From: a virus
Virus record (IMG/VR): IMGVR_UViG_3300025617_000109
Span: 1 to 24,876 of that record
Direction: 5' to 3' (one strand)
DNA: 24,876 nucleotides
In this document: one piece after another, positions 1 to 24,085 of the stretch
Position numbering within the stretch: the first letter of the stretch is position 1
Layout of the letters: every line of letters starts with the position of its first letter
Notes under the pieces: generated by a model
What the model was told of the DNA's origin: nothing
The model's database searches: none
What the model saw: only the letters and a program-made list of their open reading frames with translations
Position numbers and translations under genes: made by a program

Positions 1-1023
1 ATCTGTAATTGCTATTATTGGGTCTTCATTTGTATTACCTTGTACAACTAAAGTACCTTCAAATAAACTTGATAAAGGTTGTGATGTATTATCTTGAATA
101 ATAACTTGCCCTGCAAAAGTTGCATCTCCATCGGCGGTAAATGTAAGCATATCTACATTACTACCTAAATTTTCAGACTTAAGAATTAACTTATTATTAT
201 TACCGGAACCGGCTCCTGAATAGTATATTCTATAACCGTACCCGGTTCCGTCTCCTCTGTTACCAATATAAATTGCTCCATCTGCACTTGCTAGATTATC
301 TCCACCAATAAATAAATAATCTGTGGATTGAGGAGTGGCGTTATTCCCGTTAATTAATTTTAGATGACTTCCATTAACAGTAATATCCCCACTAGTGGTA
401 AGGTCTCCTACTGATATATTATTTGTAGTAGTTGCTCCTCTACCGGTAACAGAGTCTAGAGTATCAGTTTCTAAATATGAAGATAAAAATGGTCCAGTTT
501 CAGCATAAGAAGCAGTAGTTGCAGTTGCTGCAGTTCCTGTTGTATCTTGATTCCAAGTTGGTATAGTCCCTGCTAAGTTTGAATAATCTACATAAGAAGC
601 AGTTGCGGAAGTTCCTGTTGTATCTTGATTCCAGGTTGGTATAGTCCCTGCTAAGTTTGAATAATCTACATAAGAAGCAGTTGTTGCAGTAGTTGCAGAA
701 GCTACTGCTCCGTCTACATTTCCTCCTGCTACGTAAGAAGCAGTTGCTGCGGTTCCTGTTGTATCTTGATTCCAAGTAGGGACTGTTCCTGCTAAGTTTG
801 AATAATCTACGTAAGATGCAGTAGCTGCGGTTCCTGTTGTATCTTGATTCCAGGTTGGTATAGTCCCTGTTAAACTAGAATAAGGTACAGAAATACCTGT
901 TAAGTTACTTCCGTCTCCGTAGTAGGTAGAACCTGAGATAGATCCTAAAATAAGAAGAGAACCGGTTACTTCAGAAGAGGCAAGGGATTTATATCCCTTC
1001 CTTATAATAAATTCGTTTGCCAT
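1..1023 (-). CDS. Repetitive tail-fibre/adhesin-like structural protein, partial (C-terminus beyond window)
   Basis: An open frame of 341 codons starts at the ATG at 1023-1021 and runs off the left edge without a stop. A good ribosome site (AAGGA, about 7 nt before the ATG) supports this start. The N-terminus (MANEFIIRKGYKSL) leads into low-complexity Ser/Thr/Gly sequence containing YGDGSNLTG, a motif typical of phage fibre proteins. Residues about 52-165 consist of a 26-residue repeat (PTWNQDTTGTAATASYV followed by DYSNLAG) in four copies with one 21-residue insertion. A TDTLDSVTGRG linker follows at about 187, then a beta-rich region. I infer a trimeric host-recognition fibre or other distal tail protein. 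The fold and receptor cannot be read from the sequence. It is last in the fibre cluster, and its C-terminal part is not visible. Confidence 0.8.
   Translation of the reverse strand, partial: MANEFIIRKGYKSLASSEVTGSLLILGSISGSTYYGDGSNLTGISVPYSSLTGTIPTWNQDTTGTAATASYVDYSNLAGTVPTWNQDTTGTAATASYVAGGNVDGAVASATTATTASYVDYSNLAGTIPTWNQDTTGTSATASYVDYSNLAGTIPTWNQDTTGTAATATTASYAETGPFLSSYLETDTLDSVTGRGATTTNNISVGDLTTSGDITVNGSHLKLINGNNATPQSTDYLFIGGDNLASADGAIYIGNRGDGTGYGYRIYYSGAGSGNNNKLILKSENLGSNVDMLTFTADGDATFAGQVIIQDNTSQPLSSLFEGTLVVQGNTNEDPIIAITD
533..870 (-). repeat. Tandem 78-bp coding repeats in the fibre gene
   Basis: Four near-identical units begin (plus-strand anchor GTTCCTGTTGTATCTTGATT) at 533, 611, 752 and 830. 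Spacings are 78, 141 and 78 bp, so the middle gap is one 78-bp unit plus 63 bp. All spacings are multiples of 3, so the frame is kept and the repeat encodes 26 residues. The copies differ mainly at silent or conservative sites. Confidence 0.9.
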
Positions 1024-10745: not shown

Positions 10746-12335
10746 CTATACAGTAGCTAAGTCGCTTACGTAAATCTTTCCGTAGAATTCTGGTCTGATC
10801 ATTTTCTTCGCGTAACGAGTCATGATACCTTTTCTTGGAGTGAAGGTATTTGGATCGTATACTAGAGGAGTCATGATTAATGGTACATATGGAGAATATA
10901 CAGCACCCGCTTCTAAGAACTGACCACCTCTGAATCCTAATAGGATTGTGTTTTCAGTTACATAAGGGTTTTTGTATACTTTAAATCTACCGTTAAGTTG
11001 TCCAACTTTCTGAACACCCATTGCAAATTCCATTTGATCACCGTCAGTTGAAGCAGCGTATCCAGGAATTGATTCCAAGATTGTTGCTACAGAAGGAGAA
11101 CATACTAAGAAGTTTGCTCCACCTCTTAACGTTTTCTGGTGAATTTTGTTAGATACTTTTTGGATTTTAGTTCCTAAAGTTTGGAACCACTGTCCTTGAG
11201 TATTATAGAATTCAGAAGATGCAGTACCCCAGCTTCCGCCAGCGTCTGTACCAGTCCATACTTTATTGTTTGCAGCAGACCACTTTTCAGTAGTTCTAGC
11301 TCCACCAATTAACATGTCTAAGATCTCAAGATCAATCTCCATAGAGATATACTCACTCAATAAAGATGTTAACTCAGCCTCAGCGTCAATACTGTGGTAA
11401 GCGTTAAGATCTTGAGCGAATTCTGGAGTCCATTGTGCTTTTAACTTACGTGTTTTAGCAACAACTGCTTCAGATTTTAACTCTACATTGATTTCTGGGA
11501 TATTGATTGATCCAGCAGGATTGTCTTCAAAGTCACCTCTTGTATTGTCAGTAGGTTGTACATGGTATAGCATTGTTCCAGCTAAAGCACCACCACCAGC
11601 AGTAATGTCACTCTTAGCTACTACGAATACTACGTCACTACCGTTAATATGAGTATACTCAGGGTAGTTAGTAATATCAGTTGAACCAGATAAGATTCTG
11701 AATGCTCTTACTCCTTCAACATCAGCTCCAGATGGAGTTGAAACTGAGATAGTTGCAAAGTCTGCAGGATCTAACTCTCCGTTGAAATCTACAGAAGCAG
11801 ATGAAGCAGATCCAGTAGCAGTACTAGAATATCCTGCAGATGCAGATGCAATAGTGTATCCGAATGCTCCAGCGCCATAAAGACCTCCTGAAGGATCAAC
11901 GTCTACTCCTACTTTAGTTACTCCAGACTGAGCTCCTTCACCATAAAGGCTTGAGTCAGCAGCTTTTCCAAATCCACCAGTTCCGTATTTAAAGTCTAAG
12001 TAAAATACTAGTCCTGAAGGTAAATTCATTGGTTGTACAGAGACGAAATCTTTAGCTGAGATTTGTGCGAATACCTTTCTTACTAAAGGTAAAGCTACTC
12101 CTGCCCATTGCTCAGATCCACCGCCTGCAGCACCGATTGCAGAGCCTCCAGTACCTGATTGCTCAGCTACGATTTGTTTTGCTTGGTTTTCCAACATGAT
12201 AGACATGTTTGCAGATTCTTTTGAATCTAGTCCTTCTAGCAATCCAGAAGCACTCCACTTATCAGCTAACCTTGTAGCGTCTTCTTGTAGGGTCTTGTAC
12301 CCGTTAGCGCTTTCTAATAGGTTGTTTAATTCCAT
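10746..12335 (-). CDS. gp23: Major capsid protein, T4 gp23-like (529 aa)
   Basis: Forms the hexamers of the icosahedral head. The hallmark of the family is visible near residues 75-115: EQWAGVALPLVRKVFAQI, then VQPMNLPSGLVFYLDFKYG, which aligns with T4 gp23 (GPAVMGMVRRAIPNL...VQPMNSPTGQVF). Length is close to T4 gp23 (521 aa). The N-terminal ~58 residues are helical and charged and correspond to the T4 propeptide removed by gp21. VAE at 56-58 and LLE at 32-34 are candidate cleavage sites, but this is inference. The C-terminal half includes LNAYHSIDAEAELTSLLSEY, typical of the group. It follows gp22 by 36 nt with no promoter-like octamer and is followed by a strong terminator, so 22 and 23 are probably co-transcribed. 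Confidence 0.97.
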   Translation of the reverse strand: MELNNLLESANGYKTLQEDATRLADKWSASGLLEGLDSKESANMSIMLENQAKQIVAEQSGTGGSAIGAAGGGSEQWAGVALPLVRKVFAQISAKDFVSVQPMNLPSGLVFYLDFKYGTGGFGKAADSSLYGEGAQSGVTKVGVDVDPSGGLYGAGAFGYTIASASAGYSSTATGSASSASVDFNGELDPADFATISVSTPSGADVEGVRAFRILSGSTDITNYPEYTHINGSDVVFVVAKSDITAGGGALAGTMLYHVQPTDNTRGDFEDNPAGSINIPEINVELKSEAVVAKTRKLKAQWTPEFAQDLNAYHSIDAEAELTSLLSEYISMEIDLEILDMLIGGARTTEKWSAANNKVWTGTDAGGSWGTASSEFYNTQGQWFQTLGTKIQKVSNKIHQKTLRGGANFLVCSPSVATILESIPGYAASTDGDQMEFAMGVQKVGQLNGRFKVYKNPYVTENTILLGFRGGQFLEAGAVYSPYVPLIMTPLVYDPNTFTPRKGIMTRYAKKMIRPEFYGKIYVSDLATV

Positions 12336-12371: not shown

Positions 12372-13400
12372 TTAAATGATTCCAGCTAATTTTTGCATTC
12401 TCTTAACCGCATCAGATACTTCTGAGATTACTTCTGGTTTAGTAGCAGTAGTCCCGGTAGCTTTAGAAGCCATACCTAATTTGCTTTCGTTAACTTTCTT
12501 TGTAGCTTTTTTAGTTACTACACTTTCAGAAACAGTTTCGAATACTAATTTTACTTCTTTTACTGTTTCAGCTTTATCGAAAGCAGCGATGATGTTAACT
12601 TTTTGAGACTCGCTAAGGTTATTAGCTTTGAATACTTTGTTAACATACATTAATTTTGCGTTAAGAAGGTTAACTTCTTGAAGTTGGTTTTGTAAAGTCT
12701 CGATAGTATTTAAAGCTTCGTTTAAATCAGAATTATCTTTATCTTCTCTCATAGAAGAACCAGCATGCTTATTTGCTAACTCTTCTGGTGATAAAGCTTC
12801 ATCGTCTCCATCTTGATCTCCTTCAACTTCTTCTTTTACTTCTTCTTCTACTTCCTCGTTAGTAGCTGACTCTAACTCGGCTAATAATTCATCTAGATCG
12901 ATTTCGTCGTCTGCATCTGCTTCCATGTCGTCCATTGCTGGTTCCATTTCTGCTCCTGCATCCATATCCATACCGTCTAGTTCTTCCTCTCCACCGTCGC
13001 CCATTTCTTGTGCGATGATGTCTCGGATAAGGTCCTTTAAGTCATCGACTTCCATGTCTTTAACTTCTACTTCTTCTTCGTCGCTTTCTGCTTCGTCCTC
13101 TGATTCTTCAGAGTCATCCTCAGCTTCTTCTTCAGCTTCTACTTCGTCTTCTACTTCAGCAACATATGCTTCGTCATTTTCTTCTTCAGAATAGTTACCT
13201 TCTTCTACCTCTTCTCCAGATAATTCTTTAACTACTTCTTCATCCGTGGAATCTTCCATTTCTTGAAGTTTAGCAGCTAACATATCTTTTAAATGAGGAG
13301 TCAAAGACTCTTCTAAAGCTTCCTTAGCGTTAGCAATAGCGGCTTCTCGTATAGACTTAGCTTCAGCAATAGCTTGCTTGAATAAATCTTTGTTTGCCAT
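12372..13400 (-). CDS. gp22: Prohead core scaffolding protein, T4 gp22-like (342 aa)
   Basis: Builds the internal core on which gp23 assembles and is degraded by gp21 during maturation. The N-terminus (MANKDLFKQAIAEAKSIREA, then NAKEALEESLTPHLKDML) matches the helical start of T4-like gp22 proteins, and the C-terminus ends with VKRMQKLAGI, another family feature. Residues about 45-215 are extremely acidic (runs of Glu/Asp), a common but lengthened feature of scaffold proteins. A helical segment (LNEALNTIETLQNQLQEVNLL) follows. Position immediately before gp23 is the T4 order. It has a 140-nt upstream gap with a leader hairpin and a promoter-like octamer. Confidence 0.9.
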   Translation of the reverse strand: MANKDLFKQAIAEAKSIREAAIANAKEALEESLTPHLKDMLAAKLQEMEDSTDEEVVKELSGEEVEEGNYSEEENDEAYVAEVEDEVEAEEEAEDDSEESEDEAESDEEEVEVKDMEVDDLKDLIRDIIAQEMGDGGEEELDGMDMDAGAEMEPAMDDMEADADDEIDLDELLAELESATNEEVEEEVKEEVEGDQDGDDEALSPEELANKHAGSSMREDKDNSDLNEALNTIETLQNQLQEVNLLNAKLMYVNKVFKANNLSESQKVNIIAAFDKAETVKEVKLVFETVSESVVTKKATKKVNESKLGMASKATGTTATKPEVISEVSDAVKRMQKLAGII

Positions 13401-13540: not shown

Positions 13541-14077
13541 TTATGAAACTGCTTTAGCAGCGGCACCAACTGCAGAAGCAATCTCGCCTCCTACTACAGC
13601 AATGTCTCTACCTTTAAGTGCTGCTTTAACAGCAGAGATAGTAGCAGATGCAACTCCTCCGCCTCTTAGGGCATTTAGAGCTCCGATACCTGCCTTAACA
13701 CCAAGGCCGGCTAGAATAGCGATAAATAAACCTTTGGCGACTAAATCTCTTTTCTTTTGGTCTCTTACAAAAGGTTTTAAGAATCCTCCTATAGCTTTAA
13801 CTATGTTAACCTCATTATGATGAGCCCACTTATGAATAGCATCAGCTTTATCAGCAGCTTTATCTAGATTCATTTTACGTAAAGCTATTGCTGCATACTT
13901 ACCTAATACGTCTAATACTGTGTTAGAAGCTAAAGCCCAAGATAGTATACCTACGGTAGTAATTACCTCATTAACATCTTGTTCCCCTTCTTTACCGAAT
14001 TCAGTTTCCATGGCTTTAGCTAAGTCAGCTGCCATCTGTTGTTCAGCATTTTCAAGTATAATATCTGCTATTTTCAT
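13541..14077 (-). CDS. 178-aa hydrophobic head-cluster protein of unknown function
   Basis: Not a family I can name. It begins MKIADIILENAEQQM, where IILE|N resembles a T4 prohead-protease cleavage site ([I/L]xE) near the N-terminus, as in T4 internal proteins. Hydrophobic stretches lie at about 36-58, 115-137 (LFIAILAGLGVKAGIGAL) and 157-177, separated by a basic segment (KPFVRDQKKR). This could be a membrane-active protein or a core/internal head protein that packs through amphipathic helices. The TAATG overlap with the gp21 stop indicates coupled translation with the protease. Lying between 21 and 22 makes a prohead role more likely than lysis, but this is inference. Confidence 0.8.
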   Translation of the reverse strand: MKIADIILENAEQQMAADLAKAMETEFGKEGEQDVNEVITTVGILSWALASNTVLDVLGKYAAIALRKMNLDKAADKADAIHKWAHHNEVNIVKAIGGFLKPFVRDQKKRDLVAKGLFIAILAGLGVKAGIGALNALRGGGVASATISAVKAALKGRDIAVVGGEIASAVGAAAKAVS

Positions 14078-14655
14078 TATGCTCTTAATATATCGTTAAT
14101 AATTGAATCAAGACTTTGATACTTATTACCTTTCTTTTTAGCTTCATTTAATGAAATAGGGTTCATAAAGGCTCCATGAGTAGAAGGATTCGATACAAAG
14201 TCCCAGCATACTAATTCAAAATCAGACTGTACTTCTAGATTACCTTCGTTCGTCTGTTGAACTGAACCGGTCCCTCTAGAACTAATTCCTATAGTATGTC
14301 CTGCTTTGATAATTTCTTTTACAATGTTACCTGCTGGAGTATTAAGTAATTCTACTTTACCCATTAGGTCGTTTCCATTCCACCATAAGTCTTTAACTAT
14401 ATGTGAAGCATTTTTTAAAGATACAACAGGAGATTCTGGGTGATCTAATTCACCGTATGCATTTCCATTCTTAACGAATTCTTGCATATATTTTTTCATT
14501 TCTCTTTCTAAGATAGTTTTAGAGTAAACTCTACCATTCTGATTCTTAGCTACTGCTCTTTGCATAACACCTTCAACTTCAAATACACCAGGTCTAGTTT
14601 TTGACTCGGTGATTGTCGGTCTAAATGTTGATACTTCTACTAATAGTTGTGCCAT
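14077..14655 (-). CDS. gp21: Prohead maturation protease, T4 gp21-like (192 aa)
   Basis: Serine protease of the T4 gp21 type that processes scaffold, capsid and internal proteins inside the prohead. NQNGRVYSKTILEREM at about 39-53 is the usual early motif. The catalytic His is in GELDHPES (His72) and the Ser in GISSRGTG (Ser125 or 126). The downstream FELVCWDFVSNPSTHGAF supplies the conserved acidic region. Length (192 aa) is close to T4 gp21 (212 aa). It lies 3 nt after the 739-aa gene and overlaps the start of the 178-aa gene, within a head-assembly operon. Confidence 0.95.
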   Translation of the reverse strand: MAQLLVEVSTFRPTITESKTRPGVFEVEGVMQRAVAKNQNGRVYSKTILEREMKKYMQEFVKNGNAYGELDHPESPVVSLKNASHIVKDLWWNGNDLMGKVELLNTPAGNIVKEIIKAGHTIGISSRGTGSVQQTNEGNLEVQSDFELVCWDFVSNPSTHGAFMNPISLNEAKKKGNKYQSLDSIINDILRA

Positions 14656-14658
14656 GTC

Positions 14659-16878
14659 TTATTTTTTAGTCTCTCTTAATGCTCCGTTTACTGTAGGGGT
14701 ATAAACAGTCTGTTTCTCTTCTTCACCTAGCGGTGCTTCACCAGAATTATGTCTTTCTATATCCCTTTGTGAGATAACTCTAACTTTAGGTTGATCTAAT
14801 CCCTTAGTAAAACCTACCTTAGTAACGGGTCTTAAATCTTTATTGAATGCATTTTCAATTGCAGGTGCTAAAAAGCCTCCTACTTTAAGTCCTTCTTCGT
14901 TTCTGATATCACCTAAAGTATTATATACTTTTTGAATCTTAGTTCTTGTTTTATCGTAATAAGCTTCGATATCAGTAACAATATCTTGTAGTTGTATAAT
15001 AGCGGCTTTCATACCATCAAATCCGCCATACTCATCTGCAAATCTAGCAAGTTCTTGAGTAGCTGCTTCGTTAATAGTTCCTTCTTCTAATACTTTTTGG
15101 ATAATTGATTTAATGTTTTCTTTTACGATTTTATCTTTACCCATTGCTTTTTTGATTGCTTTGTCTTTTGCTGCCATATAATCGTCTCCGTCTACATCTC
15201 CATCTCCGTCATGATCTTTTCCTTTAGCTTCTTCTAAGTTCTCAACCATAAATTGAGTTTCTAGATACTCTAACACATCTTTTTTAGCAAACTCTATCAT
15301 TCCTGGTTCTGTCATTGGACCCATCTTCCATTCTTCCCAAGCTTTTATTAATAGATTAACGCCTTTATCAAATAAAGGACCCATGCTTTCTACATATCCG
15401 CCGGTTTCGTAATCATTTTCAGTTACTACTTTACCTCCTTGAGTTTTCTTTCTTCTACCTTCTCTAATAGATTCTTTATTTAATTTATGTACTCCTGTAC
15501 CGTCACAGTGGTCGCATCCTGAACCATCACATTCCGGGCAAATAGATTCTGGATCTGGTCCAGCTGCTTCAGCTTTTGGAGCATGCATAATGTCTACACC
15601 AAAGTTGTAATGGTCACCTATAGCATAAACTACTTCTTCTGCTTCCTCAGCTTCTGTAGTGTCGTTTTCTGCTGCTCTATCTTCTATTAAAGAAATAAAC
15701 TCTTGTAATCCTCCTACTCTTTCAGCTACTACTACTTCAGCTTCTTCTAATCCTTTTCTATTTGGATTTACGCCTTCGTTAAAACTAATTAAAGTTTTTT
15801 TAATAGCTTTTTTAAACATTCTAATATGATCTAAAGCTTCTGATTTGTCTCCATCTTTAATAGCATCTATTGCCATACCTAAATGACTGTTTTCTGAATG
15901 ATAGTTAACATCTTCAAAAGAATCATATAGAGCTTGTAGAGTTGTGATAGGAGTGTTAAGTCTAATTTTCATACCGAACTCCAACATACCTTCGTAATCA
16001 AAATCTGTAGAGAATTTATCGCCAGGTTTAAAAGATTTTACTACTTTATCTTCCTGACCGTATTTTTGTATATCTTTCATTTGTTGATCAGACATCGCTT
16101 CTTCAACTTCACTCTCTTGCATATAATCAGAAGGTGATTCGTAGTTTACAGAAACAAATTCATCAAATTCATCTCCAATTTGATCTAGAGACATTCCTCT
16201 AATATCTTGAAAATGGGTTTTAATAAAGTCTTTTATGATATCATTATCTGCACCTTTTTCTTTTTTAAGGTATGAGATAAGATCCATAGTAATTTCTCTA
16301 AGTGACTTAGTTGTTTGTTCTGGTACTGAGTCTAGATTATCATAGAAATCGTTTCTTTCATCGTCATCCATCTCATCGTTAGATTTTGCTGTACCGTCGT
16401 CATGATATCCTGGAGTACCTTCTTTTAGTTCGGCTTTTTTCATTCCGTTAAAGGTATCTACCTCATTTCCTTTCTTAGGCTCCACCATTTGATCATGCTT
16501 GTTGACCTTATTAGACTCGCCTGACATTAGATTAAGGTAGTGTAGAGGGTCTTTTTTAAGGTTTTTCAAAGCTTTATCTTTTGCTTTAGCGTGATCCTCT
16601 TCAGAAATTGACTCTTGAGACATTAATCCCATAGCTTCTAATTCAGCATCTATTCCTCTTCTAATAGCTTCATCAGAAATATTATCAAATTCTCTATATT
16701 CAGGAGTCCCATCTTTTTCAGATATCATTCCTTTTTGTTTAAGAATCTGTACGGTATCATCAAATCCTAAGAATTGATTGATAAGTTGAGGTTGTGCCAT
16801 ACGGGCATCTCTAACGAATTGTTTCTTAGAGAAAGATTCGTTCAATACCCCTCTATATTTTTCAGTTAACGTTTTCAT
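14659..16878 (-). CDS. 739-aa probable internal/core head protein with Cys knuckle and EF-hand-like loop
   Basis: No named family recognised. The N-terminus MKTLTEKYRGVLNESFSKK has a candidate gp21 site (LNE|S). Most of the protein is charged and helical. A CPECDGSGCDHCDGTG segment holds Cys447, 450, 455 and 458 (CxxC-x4-CxxC), like DnaJ-type zinc knuckles. DHDGDGDVDGDD at 555-566 fits the 12-residue EF-hand calcium loop (D1, D3, D5, G6, hydrophobic 8, acidic 12) and is followed by a Lys-rich helix (KDKAIKKAMGKDK). The C-terminus carries ELARFADEYGGFDGMKAAI and YTPTVNGALRETKK. Its place between the portal cluster and the protease, where T4 encodes small core proteins 67 and 68, suggests a prohead core or injected internal protein. 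It overlaps the 73-aa gene by 17 nt. Confidence 0.85.
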   Translation of the reverse strand: MKTLTEKYRGVLNESFSKKQFVRDARMAQPQLINQFLGFDDTVQILKQKGMISEKDGTPEYREFDNISDEAIRRGIDAELEAMGLMSQESISEEDHAKAKDKALKNLKKDPLHYLNLMSGESNKVNKHDQMVEPKKGNEVDTFNGMKKAELKEGTPGYHDDGTAKSNDEMDDDERNDFYDNLDSVPEQTTKSLREITMDLISYLKKEKGADNDIIKDFIKTHFQDIRGMSLDQIGDEFDEFVSVNYESPSDYMQESEVEEAMSDQQMKDIQKYGQEDKVVKSFKPGDKFSTDFDYEGMLEFGMKIRLNTPITTLQALYDSFEDVNYHSENSHLGMAIDAIKDGDKSEALDHIRMFKKAIKKTLISFNEGVNPNRKGLEEAEVVVAERVGGLQEFISLIEDRAAENDTTEAEEAEEVVYAIGDHYNFGVDIMHAPKAEAAGPDPESICPECDGSGCDHCDGTGVHKLNKESIREGRRKKTQGGKVVTENDYETGGYVESMGPLFDKGVNLLIKAWEEWKMGPMTEPGMIEFAKKDVLEYLETQFMVENLEEAKGKDHDGDGDVDGDDYMAAKDKAIKKAMGKDKIVKENIKSIIQKVLEEGTINEAATQELARFADEYGGFDGMKAAIIQLQDIVTDIEAYYDKTRTKIQKVYNTLGDIRNEEGLKVGGFLAPAIENAFNKDLRPVTKVGFTKGLDQPKVRVISQRDIERHNSGEAPLGEEEKQTVYTPTVNGALRETKK

Positions 16879-17963: not shown

Positions 17964-19853
17964 TTAGTCCTCTAAATCTCGTAATTGAGTTTCATCTAAT
18001 AGTTTAGATTCAGTTTCTTTTGTTTCTTCAAAAATCATTTTCTTGTTTTCTCCAAAAGAATCTTTAATCTGATGATAGACTGATTGTGCTTTTGTGGTAT
18101 TGGTTTCCATTACGTTTTCATTATCGGATGGAAATCCTCCATGCATTCCATGCACACCTAATCTATCTCTACCTCCCATCGGATCGTTATTAGTACCGTA
18201 TACCGACATTTTCTCTTTAGGTCTTCCACCTTCAGGTCCTACTTCATTATAGCCAGAGGGAACATCTCCTACTCCTCCTCCTTTTTCTGTAGCTGTTGCT
18301 CTTCTACCGTACATAGAAGCTAAGTCATGAGGTGTACCGTATGATCTTCCTGATTTAGCAGGATCATTACCTTCTGCTTCTATCTGTGCGTGTCTAAAGG
18401 CCCTCTTACCGTCTTCTCTAACTAAATCTCTCATTTCGTTATATGTATCTTCGGACATATCGAATATATTTTCATAGATATAATCTGATGAGAATAGTTT
18501 AGAGTCTTTCATTTGGTTAGCTAGATCTATTTTCTCTTTTAATAGGGCTACTTTTTCCTGTTCGTATATTACAGAAGGATTAGTAAGCTTTAATTCAAAA
18601 TTAGTTAGACTCTCTCCAGTAAAGCCTTGAGTATACAAATGTACCAAAGCAATTTTAGTTAACTCTGATTCTAATATTTTCTGTATTCTTTCTACTGTTC
18701 TAGCAAATCTAATGTCTTCTGCTGCTAAAGTAGCTTTACCGGTTAGGTCTCCTTCGTATCCAAAATATGCTTTTGGAATCTTAAGAGCAGCAAACATCTT
18801 AGCTTGTAGGTATTGAATATCGTTTGTTCCGTCGTAATCTAAACCTTTAGTAGTTTCGATTCTAGTAGAAGCATCTCCACCCCTTACAGGAATATAGAAA
18901 TCTTCCATCATATTCTGCATATTGAACTTCAAGTTATATTGACCTGTTTTAGGATCAACATAAGGAGTCTTTTTCATAGTGTTGATAGTTTTTTGCATAA
19001 ACTGATCAACTTCTGCAGGAGGAATAGAACCAACATTAACAAAGAAAGTTCTCTTTTCAGGAGCTCTCATTATACGGTGAATTAACATCGCATCTTCCAT
19101 TAACGTCAATTGCTTAAATATCTTTCTAGCTGGTTCGATATAAGAACGACCGTAGGGTAAGTAAGCATGATCTGATATTAACCTAAAATGTGCTACTTCG
19201 TAATTATCTAAAGTAACTACTTTTGAGTCTCTTTTAGGAATATAGTTAGGATCTTGTGATGCTGCTATACCGTCGGGGTTGATAGAGAATTGAACCTCAG
19301 AAGGTTTATCGGGATTAGCACCTTCATGTCTAGATACATTATATACAGTATACGGAAGTACATTGTATACTCCAAACTTTTCAGCTATTTCTAACTTTAA
19401 GAAATAATCTCCGTACTTTAACATTCCTCTAACCCATGACCATAGGTTAAACTCTACATTTAATACATCGTAAAATAAATTATAAAGGACTCTCTGTAGG
19501 TTTTCATCAGATGATTTTACTGATAGTATTTCACCCATATCGTTTTTAAGAGTAGCTTCGTCAGCTAGAATATCTAATGCTGAAGCTATAATTGGATCTG
19601 TATCCATTGCTTCATAGTCAGAATATAACTGTATTCTAAGTGTTTGATAGTTTAGATTTGGATTAAAAATGTTCTGCTTATTGTAAACATGTAATCTAGT
19701 AAATCTATCAACTAATGCGTTAGTTTCAAAATTACCTGTAGTTTGAATACGATTAATATCAGCAACCTTAAGTTCGGTACCTCCTATGTTTCGTATAATT
19801 ACATCCGAAGAGAAAAGTCTCTGTAATCTCCCAAATAATGATTTATCGGCCAT
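17964..19853 (-). CDS. gp20: Portal vertex protein, T4 gp20-like (629 aa)
   Basis: Forms the dodecameric portal through which DNA is packaged and ejected. The N-terminal domain contains YDPIIASALDI-type sequence (DTDPIIASALDILADEA) and WVRGMLKYGDYFLKLEI. The central hallmark is near 260-350: LMEDAMLIHRIMRAPEKRTF, FVNVGSIPP, NMMEDFYIPVRGG and GTNDIQYLQAKMFAALKIP, which closely follow T4 gp20 (YRITRAPERRVFYIDVG...MEDFWLPRREGG...DIEYF). It is about 100 residues longer than T4 gp20 (524 aa). The extra C-terminus from about 480 is Gly/Pro-rich and charged, with GMHGGFPSDNEN, and ends in an acidic helix (TKETESKLLDETQLRDLED). It follows the terminase by 42 nt, with a promoter-like octamer in the gap. 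Confidence 0.97.
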   Translation of the reverse strand: MADKSLFGRLQRLFSSDVIIRNIGGTELKVADINRIQTTGNFETNALVDRFTRLHVYNKQNIFNPNLNYQTLRIQLYSDYEAMDTDPIIASALDILADEATLKNDMGEILSVKSSDENLQRVLYNLFYDVLNVEFNLWSWVRGMLKYGDYFLKLEIAEKFGVYNVLPYTVYNVSRHEGANPDKPSEVQFSINPDGIAASQDPNYIPKRDSKVVTLDNYEVAHFRLISDHAYLPYGRSYIEPARKIFKQLTLMEDAMLIHRIMRAPEKRTFFVNVGSIPPAEVDQFMQKTINTMKKTPYVDPKTGQYNLKFNMQNMMEDFYIPVRGGDASTRIETTKGLDYDGTNDIQYLQAKMFAALKIPKAYFGYEGDLTGKATLAAEDIRFARTVERIQKILESELTKIALVHLYTQGFTGESLTNFELKLTNPSVIYEQEKVALLKEKIDLANQMKDSKLFSSDYIYENIFDMSEDTYNEMRDLVREDGKRAFRHAQIEAEGNDPAKSGRSYGTPHDLASMYGRRATATEKGGGVGDVPSGYNEVGPEGGRPKEKMSVYGTNNDPMGGRDRLGVHGMHGGFPSDNENVMETNTTKAQSVYHQIKDSFGENKKMIFEETKETESKLLDETQLRDLED

Positions 19854-19895: not shown

Positions 19896-21467
19896 TTATA
19901 ATAACCAAGATATATCTTCTTGTCCGTAGCCATTATCAATAATATAAGGATTATTTTGCTGATTACCAACTGATTTCATAACTGCTTTGTTTTTTGCGTT
20001 TAAATTTTGAAAAGAGGATAATTGAGCTCTAGCTAAATCCATACCTTGCTGTCTTAACCTTAATGCTGTGTCTCTAACGTATAGAGCTGTTGCACAAGCC
20101 ATTAATAAGTCATCATTATAGTTTGTTTGTGCTTGTGGTTTACCATTTTTCCATACAAACACTCTCATTTCTCCTAATAATCTTTTAGATTGAATAGTTA
20201 CGCCTCTTTCTCTAATATATTCTATCATTTTAGCGATTACTAGAGGTCTAGTTCTAACAGACATAGTAAATCCAGGTACTAGTTTATCTCTTTCGTACTT
20301 AGACATATAAGATTCTACTGTTTCCATTTGAGAGGTAGAACTATAGTATAAATTGCTATATTGACGTTCAAGTATCTGTTCAATTGTAGCCCAACCTATA
20401 TTTGCATTCTCAACAACTAAAAGAGCTTGATTAAATTCTGTTGCAATACCAACTAATACATTACCAAAATCTTTAGGAGATATTTTACCTTTGTATTCTC
20501 CTACCTGTACACAGTTTTCTATATCAAATATATGAAATGCAGAATAATCGGCAGAGTCTCCTCTTGATACATCAGCTACTACCATATAAGATTTAGTATA
20601 ATCTACTCCTTCCCATACCCATAGGTTGCTATCTACACCTCTTCTTTCTAATGGTTCTTTAAGGTATGTTTGCTCAAAGAACATCATATCATCAGGTTCG
20701 AATACTGTATCACCAGAAGCTAAGAAATCACAATCACACTCTTGACCGGCCATTCTAGGTCCTAAGTCTGAGTCTTGTTGATCTCTCCATGATTGATCCC
20801 TTTCTGGATGTACTGTCCAGGGTAGCTTAATAGGTAAAAAGCTATTTTCTCCTGATTCAGCTTTATCCCAAGTTTGATGAAACCAGTTACCAATACCGTT
20901 AGGTGTTGATAAAGCCATACATTGTCCACCGGTAGCTAAGGTTTGTTGAGCTGCTGTAAACGTCTCTTGAATGTTATCAATAAAGGCTGCCTCATCGATA
21001 AGAAGTAATGATACTGCCTCTGACCTTGCAGCATCGGCGTTAGATGATTTAGCTGTAATTTTAGATCCATTTTTTAACCTTAAAGATAGTTTATTTTTTT
21101 CTACTGCAGGCAGCTTTAACCATTTAGGTAACTGGTCATACATAAACATAGTTTTAGAAACTAAGTTACGTGCAGTTGCTTGAGTAGTTGCTAATGCTAA
21201 AACGTTTTTATCTTTATGAAATAACATTAACCATAGACTATATGCTGCTGCTAGAGTAGAGATACCTAACTGTCTAGATTTTAAAGTAATTAAGTATTGA
21301 TTATCTCTAAAAAGATGTAGTACTTTTTCCTGAAAGGGGTATAGATTAAATAAGATACGGCCTCTAGTAGGGTGCTGAATATAACAGTACTTCTTCATGA
21401 AGTATGCCGGATCTTTAGCACACTTTATATATTCCTGTGCTATTATTTTTTTTATGTCTTGTGCCAT
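19896..21467 (-). CDS. gp17: Terminase large subunit, T4 gp17-like (523 aa)
   Basis: Motor ATPase and nuclease that packages and cuts concatemeric DNA. ATPase domain: Walker A-like SRQLGIST at 64-71 preceded by Lys63, Walker B LLLIDEAAF at 154-162 and the coupling motif STPNG at 187-191. Nuclease (RNase H-like) domain: MVVADVSRGDSADYSAF with Asp299, VVENANIGWATIEQI with Glu353, and NDDLLMA with Asp452/453, the same three acidic sites as T4 gp17 (Asp401, Glu458, Asp542). The canonical Walker A lysine is replaced by Ile (GIST instead of GKT). Variants of this K-x-R-Q-x-G-x-S-T kind occur in many phage terminases, so I read it as active. It is shorter than T4 gp17 (610 aa). No small terminase is adjacent. 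Confidence 0.97.
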   Translation of the reverse strand: MAQDIKKIIAQEYIKCAKDPAYFMKKYCYIQHPTRGRILFNLYPFQEKVLHLFRDNQYLITLKSRQLGISTLAAAYSLWLMLFHKDKNVLALATTQATARNLVSKTMFMYDQLPKWLKLPAVEKNKLSLRLKNGSKITAKSSNADAARSEAVSLLLIDEAAFIDNIQETFTAAQQTLATGGQCMALSTPNGIGNWFHQTWDKAESGENSFLPIKLPWTVHPERDQSWRDQQDSDLGPRMAGQECDCDFLASGDTVFEPDDMMFFEQTYLKEPLERRGVDSNLWVWEGVDYTKSYMVVADVSRGDSADYSAFHIFDIENCVQVGEYKGKISPKDFGNVLVGIATEFNQALLVVENANIGWATIEQILERQYSNLYYSSTSQMETVESYMSKYERDKLVPGFTMSVRTRPLVIAKMIEYIRERGVTIQSKRLLGEMRVFVWKNGKPQAQTNYNDDLLMACATALYVRDTALRLRQQGMDLARAQLSSFQNLNAKNKAVMKSVGNQQNNPYIIDNGYGQEDISWLL

Positions 21468-21469
21468 AA

Positions 21470-22924
21470 CTAACTTACTTTAACTCCCGAAGAAGTAATA
21501 AATAGAGATTTACCGCTCCAACCACCTGCTGCTCTTGTACGTACAGTAACAGGTATTGTAACATCTTTCGTATCTCCTGAGATTTCTATTTTAAACTTAA
21601 CTGTGAATGATTGTGAATCACCGTTATAGCTGTTTGAAATACCTTTTATATCGTCACTAGAATCTACTGTGACTATGCTTTTTAATATTTTATCCTCAGA
21701 TACATCTTTAATCGTTGATCCAGATTCTGTTCCTACTAATAATTTATATGGACAAGGTGTTTCTCCTTTTACTACTGTACCGTATGTGTAAGCTGCGATA
21801 GAATTTAAAAAGTATTTTAAAGTCTGAGGATTAGATAACATCTTACTTAATCCTGAGATTATATTATTTCTAAATGGATAGTAAAAGTCTTTACCGTAAA
21901 ACTCTAAATCATCTTTTTGAAACTCTACTGCTAAATCTGCAAATACATCTCTACTTTTAGTTTCAGAAAAATCTTCTTTTGAAATATCAAAATTATTTAT
22001 AGCCTCTTTTGCATTAGTACCAGAAACAGTAGATGCTGCTTTATTCCAAGAACCATCTATAAGTTTCTTTATTTCCTCTGAGATACTACCTTCTAATTTA
22101 TCGAAAAAAGCTACTATATTAGTATTAAACTTAGGAGTTTTATCTTCTTTTTCAGCTATCTTATTTGAATAGCCTATAAAATCTCCATTGTTTAACTCTA
22201 TAATAATATCAGAAGGATTTTTAGAATTTATATTTGCAGGCTTACCTCTAGGAGTCCAATATAAATTTTTTATACTTACTCCTTTTAAATCACTTTTCAA
22301 TGCTACTGCATTATTATAACCTATCTTTATATCTCTTTCAGGAGTTTCATCTTTTTCTATCAACTCTATTAGTTGAGAATAAGTTACTTCATCTCCTTCT
22401 CCTGTAAGAACTCCTGTTCCTCCTTGCTTATCTACTATATCTTCAACACTGTTAAATTGAGGGTGTTTTAAAAAATATAGAGATAAAAATTCATTAACGT
22501 TAGAAGATGCTGTAGTGTCTTTTCTTGTTTTCTGTCCGTAGTGAGATATAACTTTTGATTTAGGTATCACTATAAATTCCCCTATGGAGTTTTCTAAATC
22601 TTTAAATAATTCGAATTTAGCTGAGCCTCTTAATGAAAGTATAGGTTCTTTTGTTACATCTGCAACTGCTTTGTAAATAAGGTCTGTAAATTTAATATCT
22701 TTATTATTAAGTAACTCTCTAACTTTATTATCCAAATCAGGATCTATATTATAAAAAGGATTAAATATACCTCTACTTTGATATTTAGGAGATACAGTAA
22801 GTTCATTTAACTTAAAGTCAAACATAGATTCAAATAAATCCATATCCTCTTGACTGTTAATGTCAGGATATCCTTTTTTGGTTCTATATGACCATTCGAG
22901 TATAGCTTTGTCTATAAGGTTCAT
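21470..22924 (-). CDS. 484-aa protein upstream of terminase, possible PD-(D/E)XK-like fold
   Basis: Begins MNLIDKAILEWSYRTKKGYP. I cannot assign a named family. The central segment (about 236-255) reads NPSDIIIELNNGDFIGYSNK and is followed by TPKFNTNIVAFF. An Asp followed after a beta hairpin by xNK has the spacing of the PD-(D/E)XK nuclease core, but with Ser instead of Glu/Asp before the Lys, so activity is doubtful. The C-terminus is beta-rich and has TVRTRAAGGWSGKSLFI. It starts directly at the stop of the 386-aa gene and ends 2 nt before the terminase ATG, so it is coupled to packaging. It could be a packaging-associated nuclease, a DNA-end or recombination protein, or purely structural. 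Confidence applies to the gene, not to the fold. Confidence 0.85.
   Translation of the reverse strand: MNLIDKAILEWSYRTKKGYPDINSQEDMDLFESMFDFKLNELTVSPKYQSRGIFNPFYNIDPDLDNKVRELLNNKDIKFTDLIYKAVADVTKEPILSLRGSAKFELFKDLENSIGEFIVIPKSKVISHYGQKTRKDTTASSNVNEFLSLYFLKHPQFNSVEDIVDKQGGTGVLTGEGDEVTYSQLIELIEKDETPERDIKIGYNNAVALKSDLKGVSIKNLYWTPRGKPANINSKNPSDIIIELNNGDFIGYSNKIAEKEDKTPKFNTNIVAFFDKLEGSISEEIKKLIDGSWNKAASTVSGTNAKEAINNFDISKEDFSETKSRDVFADLAVEFQKDDLEFYGKDFYYPFRNNIISGLSKMLSNPQTLKYFLNSIAAYTYGTVVKGETPCPYKLLVGTESGSTIKDVSEDKILKSIVTVDSSDDIKGISNSYNGDSQSFTVKFKIEISGDTKDVTIPVTVRTRAAGGWSGKSLFITSSGVKVS
21497..21504 (-). promoter_or_regulatory. Possible embedded late-promoter-like octamer upstream of terminase
   Basis: The coding strand reads CTCTATTTATTACTTC inside the last codons of the 484-aa gene, 29 nt before the terminase ATG. 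It matches the variant seen before phoH and gp13 (TATTTATT), but it lies in coding sequence and may be chance. Confidence 0.25.
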
Positions 22925-24085
22925 TTAATATCTTCCTTCTAAATCTTCTTCGTCCATTTCATTACCTTTCAAGTCGATAGCATATCCATACCCTTCTTTA
23001 GGTCCGTCTCCGTCTCCATAATCGCTATAAACTCCTCCGGTAATGAAGTATCCATTAGGGTACTTTTCTATAGATTCTATTCTACCATCGTCGTTTGGAT
23101 CATCATCGCCTATTTCGTATGTTTTGCCGCCTAATGTTAATTTTTTTAACCTTTTAGGTTTAAATGAAGGTTTAGTATCTTTTGGTTTGTTTTTATCGTA
23201 TTCTGCGAATTGTCTATCTTGAATAGCATCGAGCTCTGGGTGAGATTGGATACCGCTTTTTCCTATTTCAACAGATCGTATTTTATCTTCATGCCCTGGG
23301 TTATCGTTGTACTTAATAGATGCTTCTAGTCCTAATTCTTTAGCTTTTGCAACTAACTCCTCAGCATTTTTTAATAGTTCTTCAGGAGTATGTCCAACTA
23401 CAGTCATACCTTCATTTACAGATCTACTGTTAGAAGTAAGTTTATTCTCTACTAAGAATTTTCTTAAATTAAAATTACTTATTTCATTTATAGGTTGATC
23501 ATCATCTAGGTAAGCTCTTCTTAATTGAGTTTGCATAGACTCTCTTTCATCACTGTCATACTGGAATGAATTTGGGATTAAAGAATCTAAATCGTATGCA
23601 TTTTCTACTTTTCCAAATTGTTTAACAAAGATTTCTAAGTCTTCTTGTGTATCAGTATCACCATATGGTTTAAGGTAAACATCTACAAATTTATCAAAAG
23701 CTTCTCTTTGACCTTTATCTAATCCACTTAAATCAACACCAGATAAATCATATTTTTGTCTTGGAGCAGATGGTTTACTGTCTCCAGTCATTTCATCGTT
23801 GTAATAATCAACTGCCATATCTACGATATCGCTAGAAGGTACATCTTCTTCTCTTTGATCATAGTAGTATTCTACAGAACTATCTATAATAGCTTGTAGA
23901 ACTTTATCTGAAATGTTTGGTAATTGAGCTTTAATACCTGCTTCTACTTCTGCTTGATAAGCAGCATCATCGATTTCATAGCTATATTCGTCAAAAGAAA
24001 AAGTTAATTCTTCTTTTAATATTTTACTACTAGCAGTAAGTTTATTCTCTGTTAAGAATTTTCTTAAATTAAAATTATTTTTCAT
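22925..24085 (-). CDS. 386-aa acidic protein with duplicated FNLRKFL leader (probable fusion of two modules)
   Basis: The N-terminus MKNNFNLRKFLTENKLTASS recurs at about residue 204 as SNFNLRKFLVENKLTSNS, exactly 200 codons later, so the protein is two modules that each start with the same leader. Both copies hold an LxE (LTE, LVE) that fits the T4 prohead-protease cleavage pattern. Module 1 is acidic and helical (DDAAYQAEVEAGIKAQLP). Module 2 contains HTPEELLKNAEELVAKAKEL and a C-terminal beta region with GKTYEIGDDDPNDDGRIESI and YFITGGVYSDYGDGDG. No family is recognised. The leader suggests delivery into the prohead, so these may be internal head proteins. An out-of-frame ATGA just before copy 2 looks like a relic start/stop junction. 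Confidence 0.82.
   Translation of the reverse strand: MKNNFNLRKFLTENKLTASSKILKEELTFSFDEYSYEIDDAAYQAEVEAGIKAQLPNISDKVLQAIIDSSVEYYYDQREEDVPSSDIVDMAVDYYNDEMTGDSKPSAPRQKYDLSGVDLSGLDKGQREAFDKFVDVYLKPYGDTDTQEDLEIFVKQFGKVENAYDLDSLIPNSFQYDSDERESMQTQLRRAYLDDDQPINEISNFNLRKFLVENKLTSNSRSVNEGMTVVGHTPEELLKNAEELVAKAKELGLEASIKYNDNPGHEDKIRSVEIGKSGIQSHPELDAIQDRQFAEYDKNKPKDTKPSFKPKRLKKLTLGGKTYEIGDDDPNDDGRIESIEKYPNGYFITGGVYSDYGDGDGPKEGYGYAIDLKGNEMDEEDLEGRY
23435..23477 (-). repeat. Direct repeat copy 2, encoding the internal FNLRKFLVENKL leader
   Basis: 41 of 43 bases are identical to 24035-24077, at a distance of exactly 600 bp. The match includes silent positions. Confidence 0.88.
24035..24077 (-). repeat. 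Direct repeat copy 1, encoding the N-terminal FNLRKFLTENKL leader
   Basis: First copy of the 43-bp direct repeat, in the opening codons of the 386-aa gene. The two mismatches fall in the codon that differs between Thr and Val. Confidence 0.88.

Follow-up and report, generated by a model that had tools for sequence, protein, structure and literature searches.

A 386-amino-acid open reading frame (ORF) in a T4-type phage fragment begins with a short leader and carries the same leader again near its middle, which raises the question of how the second copy came to lie inside a protein and what it does there. We analyzed the 24,876-nucleotide stretch of DNA that holds this ORF (hereafter the window), in which all main genes lie on the minus strand, together with related viral contigs. 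We propose, with a probability of about 0.7, that two cargo genes, each bearing a capsid-targeting sequence (CTS), have fused, and that the polyprotein would be imported into the prohead and cut there by a gp21-type protease to release two internal proteins. What the initial annotation of this locus missed is that the leader looks like a capsid-targeting and protease-cleavage sequence, and as such it appears to outweigh the junction in importance.

One open frame with two leaders

The ORF spans 22925..24085 on the minus strand, between a gene ending in EEPGEEPEA and the gene upstream of the terminase, a place at which relatives have a variable number of leader genes. The leader-bearing ORF reported here earlier is real, but the start given for it, 23435, lies inside the true frame. 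The leader, FNLRKFL[T/V]ENKLT, starts at residue 5 and again at residue 205. Leader 1 (residues 1–25, MKNNFNLRKFLTE followed by NKLTASSKILKE; 24011..24085, minus strand), a predicted capsid-targeting sequence, has [LI]xE motifs ending at residues 13 and 25, and precedes the module 1 body (residues 26–200; 23486..24010, minus strand), the first predicted cargo protein. Internal leader 2 (residues 201–225; 23411..23485, minus strand) bears the motifs INE, LVE and VNE, ending at residues 201, 213 and 225, and leads into the module 2 body (residues 226–386; 22928..23410, minus strand). Both bodies are free of [LI]xE.

The two DNA copies of the leader are identical at 41 of 43 bases over the stretch originally compared and lie exactly 600 bp apart, and we also recovered the 2-nt length difference between copy 1 (ATGAAAAATAATTTT) and copy 2 (ATGAAATAAGTAATTTT). 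This near-identity had been taken to indicate a duplication that is recent or maintained by recombination. By itself it does not show a recent event, and the pair is not unusual: across the core, leaders from unrelated contigs agree with it at every codon. The repeated part is the leader only, about 25 codons; comparison of the module 1 and module 2 bodies established no similarity beyond it, and the likeness of the halves is driven by the leader. The module 1 body was modeled as mostly helical at low confidence (mean pLDDT 63.2), too poor for a fold search. The module 2 model (mean pLDDT 77.7) shows a weakly folded leader, an N-terminal part of helices and strands and a beta-rich C-terminal part; a fold search with this model alone returned no PDB match at E ≤ 0.001. 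The whole ORF matched nothing in PHROGs and no Pfam family above its cut-off (there was one sub-threshold match), and no peptidase domain was found in the Pfam search.

The modules are separate genes in relatives

That two leader-bearing genes became one ORF, as first proposed, is borne out by relatives, which encode the halves as separate genes but never side by side; the direct parent, with the modules adjacent as two genes, was found in none of them. Module 1 (residues 1–200) is a complete gene in six loci (L002, L003, L004, L005, L006 and L008), ending in QPIN, QPMN or QPID before the stop, and in four others (L007, L009, L013 and L016) module 2 (residues 201–386) stands complete, with a leader and a start of its own. 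The stand-alone module 2 ORF begins MKNNFDLKKFLVENKLT. Two further candidates for stand-alone second modules, L077 and L091, were rejected; both are 5'-truncated fusions.

In the window, the final sense codon of module 1 marks the join. The idea that it preserves a relic ATGA stop/start overlap finds no support, because the module 1 orthologues end in TAA, never in ATGA, and in L003 and L005 a spacer of 11–23 nt separates this TAA from the next leader gene. Nor is such an overlap the usual arrangement in this genome, as had been assumed: a 4-nt overlap joins 1 of the 18 neighboring gene pairs checked in the window. The out-of-frame ATG itself is present (AAATGAAATAAG; 23478..23489, minus strand), and to judge from its counterpart in L007 and L009, ATGAAAAATAATTTT, this ATGAAA probably derives from the start codon that module 2 once had. 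The same ATG might be taken as a sign of programmed frameshifting between two genes at the ATGA, a mechanism that had been raised, but the out-of-frame start reads M-K-stop, and with an uninterrupted frame through the junction no shift is needed; we regard the probability of this mechanism as negligible.

Could the open frame instead be an assembly or sequencing error, an indel or base error having joined modules that are still separate genes? The evidence for the junction is a single contig, and its exact 30 nt were found in no other viral contig. All module 1 orthologues stop here with TAA, a stop that a single T to G change would suffice to open. But the spacer and start codon of module 2 are missing as well and the frame of leader 2 is intact, so that more than one error would be needed, and in-frame double leaders occur in at least 15 other ORFs. 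Such an error is therefore very unlikely in our judgment, and fusion of two leader-bearing genes is well supported by the comparison of the contigs. The 3' half of leader 2 is common to the module 2 orthologue in L009 and its 5' half to leader 1, which suggests that sequence was exchanged within the leader.

Large ORFs of L015 and L017–L020 also contain the body of module 2 or the C-terminal part of it. In every full-length context the homology of this body starts right after [LIV]xE (VNE/GM, ITE/DL, VNE/DL, LDE/NL and LVE/ML, the slash marking the boundary). The window has a large acidic, polyprotein-like ORF of its own (14659–16878), with a GKDHDGDGDVDGDDYMAAKDKAIKKAMGK segment of EF-hand-like look; its homologues in L015 and L018–L020 carry all or some of the window's module 2 body as an insertion, in some after VNE.

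The leader heads a large set of unrelated proteins

Two leader-alignment scans of viral contigs gave 257 and 238 confirmed stretches, and the best 80 of each, together with earlier loci, make up our leader frame set. In this set the leader occurs in at least 274 distinct frames, directly after a methionine in 271 of 274. The distinct trimmed ORFs that begin with it number at least 270, lie on contigs of T4-like phages and comprise at least 88 unrelated body families (median 156 aa), acidic on average. Domain searches with 87 body representatives yielded 2 Pfam and 6 PHROG families, each matching one representative and none with a known function, so the bodies are almost wholly unannotated. In bacterial genome contigs we found two leader loci only, both on one metagenome-assembled contig, and a literature search, mostly of papers available without subscription, found no earlier description of the leader. 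Four to six consecutive leader genes with unrelated bodies stand at L004 8168–11186, L003 1190–2947 and L010 9293–11624, arrays that are likely cargo islands.

In a collection of named phages, the sole match to the fusion protein was Flavobacterium phage immuto. The major capsid proteins of immuto and the window share 70% identity, and immuto encodes three leader proteins (gp179, gp194 and gp195), the genes for two of which stand just ahead of the terminase. One leader-bearing immuto gene product, gp194 (QQO91873.1; L044 17632–18633), is annotated as the cob(I)alamin adenosyltransferase PduO; it has no Pfam match at E 0.1, and the annotation looks doubtful. Gene starts in the window lack clear Shine-Dalgarno sequences, as is common in Bacteroidetes, and the host is probably a marine member of that group.

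Leader DNA is conserved beyond what codon usage predicts: codons match between loci at 0.70 (0.60 predicted), and within a locus the match rises to 0.78, a difference reached in 0 of 500 permutations. The higher identity within loci fits exchange at the leader, and on both counts the leader may also be a recombination site. One could go further and read the leader as another kind of shared N-terminal element altogether, either a docking motif for a different complex or a DNA sequence for recombination or regulation. This reading gains from the DNA conservation, and from the detection of head genes near only 86 of 139 leader loci in a pairwise search of short flanks. Neither a DNA element nor a generic docking motif, however, predicts the two [LI]xE motifs in the leader and their depletion in the bodies, described below, and we consider this reading distinctly unlikely.

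The leader resembles a T4 capsid-targeting and cleavage sequence

In T4, a CTS of 10–19 residues brings internal proteins into the prohead and is removed by gp21 after L/I-x-E; in IPIII, residues 4 and 7 serve targeting and residues 8 and 10 processing, and Asp at position 10 abolishes processing while leaving targeting intact (PMC9026906). In the T4 record, IPII and IPIII begin MKTYQEFIAE (cut MKTYQEFIAE/A) and IPI begins MKTFKEFTSTTTPVSTITE. When the sequences are aligned on the cut glutamate, the four key positions of IPIII coincide with leader residues that hardly vary, L, F/Y, L and E (as in LKKYLAE and LRKFLTE). Relative to this glutamate the hydrophobic and aromatic residues come in the same order, but the present leader exceeds the T4 CTS by two residues and the match is too short for a test of significance; any homology of the two is putative. 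A different short start, ending in ILE near residue 9–10 (MNLIDKAILE, MKIADIILE, MHKLEKLILE), is seen in other genes of the head cluster, at the N-termini of window ORFs 21470–22924 and 13541–14077 and in L009 8934–9986; it is possibly a second class of targeting sequence.

The window encodes the enzyme presumed to do the cutting, a prohead protease of gp21 type (14077..14655, minus strand; phrog_207, 5e-54; T4 gp21 5jbl, 6.4e-24) that keeps the GELxH and SSRGxGS segments of T4 gp21. Around it are genes for a major capsid protein of gp23 type (10746..12335, minus strand; phrog_138, T4 gp23 chains up to 5e-31), a portal protein of gp20 type (17964..19853, minus strand; phrog_213) and the terminase large subunit, a gp17 relative (19896..21467, minus strand; phrog_2). 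Between the protease and capsid genes, in the place of the T4 scaffold gene 22, lies an acidic ORF (12372..13400, minus strand) without a PHROG match, likened to gp22 by position and composition only. Elsewhere in the window (443–979), a large structural-looking ORF contains tandem 78-bp repeats (one step is 63 bp) of YSNLAGTVPTWNQDTTGTAATASYVD units.

Upon inspection of the leader family, we found [LI]xE in the leader core of 263 of 270 leaders, the core glutamate being in neither viral-contig scan pattern but in the scoring matrix used to call leaders. A second [LI]xE, a site in neither the scan patterns nor that matrix, stands at the leader end in 246 of 270, compared with 7–18% in later 15-residue windows. 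Proteins that meet a gp21-type protease should avoid [LI]xE in their mature parts. In line with this expectation, every [LI]xE of the window fusion lies in one of its two leaders, four in all (residues 13, 25, 201 and 213); shuffling gives P=0.009 for finding none in the bodies. The V-N-E at residue 225 may be a fifth cut site. Across 90 representative bodies, [LI]xE occurs 159 times against 206.7 expected (0.77x, z=−3.8), and no other spacing from 1 to 6 is as depleted; [LI]xD (1.21x) and [LI]xK (1.18x) lie above expectation, and a set of 329 other ORFs from related contigs shows enrichment of [LI]xE (1.19x, z=6.3). These motif and depletion statistics are indirect evidence, and the sequences behind them are related to one another. 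An exception to the depletion is the gp194-like family, whose first body has many [LI]xE motifs and is perhaps a scaffold-like part. From the sequence comparisons, we consider the leader likely to be a capsid-targeting and cleavage sequence.

Double-leader ORFs recur

Among the contigs compared, double-leader fusions recur. At least 16 ORFs, including that of the window, have two leaders, and they represent about six lineages overall. A single family, with immuto gp194 as a relative, accounts for ten of the 16: four of these end in a leader and six continue into a second module; these six second modules show a single weak similarity (36% over 39 aa). The other joins are those of the window, L126, L133/L137, L136 and L192. 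One cargo type has evidently been joined behind different partners, since module 2 of the window has a relative in the second module of L114 (48% over 73 aa). Shorter leader remnants link modules in L004, L006 and L010.

Leaders stand at both ends of ORFs L086 1080–2552, L094 5001–6257 and L099 867–2228, which end, for example, in LQEGTFDLRKFLAENRK before the stop. A terminator-like hairpin lies 3' of these three, and another leader gene 3' of L093. By analogy with what is reported for T4 Alt, the terminal leader is possibly a C-terminal propeptide.

These ORFs bear on whether the chain would be cut between the modules at all. A two-domain internal protein might be packed whole, with the internal leader as a leftover linker; perhaps the fusion happened recently and leader 2 persists by inertia. 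Yet no core residue has been lost from leader 2, and the I-N-E site comes with the join, while [LI]xE is missing from both window bodies. In the other lineages, too, internal leaders keep the core [LI]xE, usually with another site just upstream: [LIV]xE stands there in 13 of the 16 double-leader ORFs (the 16% background is for [LI]xE). We hold packaging without this cut to be unlikely, and a processed two-cargo polyprotein to be plausible.

Discussion

From the separate genes in relatives, the leader family, the placement and depletion of the motif and the protease gene, we infer targeting, cleavage, packaging and injection as follows. Each ancestral cargo gene would have begun with a CTS of the kind found in T4 internal proteins, which would dock its protein at the prohead's scaffold core. 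Import of the whole fused chain would fall to the first leader. The gp21-type protease encoded on the same contig would then cut after [LI]xE, at E13/E25, E201 and E213 and possibly after V-N-E225, leaving mature proteins of about residues 26–200 and 214/226–386. Both would be packaged alongside the DNA and, upon infection, probably injected. A broader proposal, that this T4-like lineage repeatedly fuses units of targeting sequence and cargo, with the internal leader serving as linker and cut site and one leader importing the cargo in a fixed ratio, seems to us an even bet.

The closest parallel is the set of T4 internal proteins IPI, IPII and IPIII (and Alt): otherwise unrelated small proteins, encoded by a variable gene set, share a short N-terminal leader of hydrophobic and aromatic residues followed by [LI]xE (PMC9026906, PMC3012670, PMC12373910), and a gp21-type protease, gp17, gp20 and gp23 occur in the phage. 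In contrast to T4, the leader here covers about 12–25 residues with two cut motifs, heads at least 88 body families rather than three proteins, forms multi-gene arrays and also occurs internally or C-terminally, giving rise to double-leader ORFs. The bodies are acidic on average, whereas T4 internal proteins are reported to be basic.

Polyvalent proteins of phages and conjugative elements likewise combine several cargo domains in one chain and are putatively packed and delivered with DNA; their authors liken them to polyproteins and ascribe release to peptidase domains in the chain (PMC5512222). Here, by contrast, the cut sites come from repeated leaders and would serve the head protease, and searches of the fusion ORF at Pfam cut-offs and in PHROGs found none of the multiple recognizable effector or peptidase domains that mark polyvalent proteins. 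In SPN3US and phiKZ, the prohead protease cuts propeptides of head proteins, including ejection proteins, after a motif glutamate, and two SPN3US paralogues have identical N-termini; according to the available passages of that work, the motifs differ (A-x-E or S-x-E), the propeptides are mostly long, and these passages contain no cargo-leader-cargo fusions (PMC5694885).

The leader provides a simple sequence tag for a large and almost entirely unannotated protein set. Phages of the immuto type probably carry leader-tagged proteins in their heads and inject them. Because the T4 equivalents inhibit restriction enzymes (PMC12373910), injected cargo may by analogy counter host defense, and the leader list becomes a list of candidate anti-defense proteins in phages of a major marine bacterial group. 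The fusions, in turn, suggest natural multi-cargo packaging and make it possible to test head-protease specificity directly in phages other than T4. If the broader proposal is right, several injected proteins would enter the head by one leader and in a fixed ratio.
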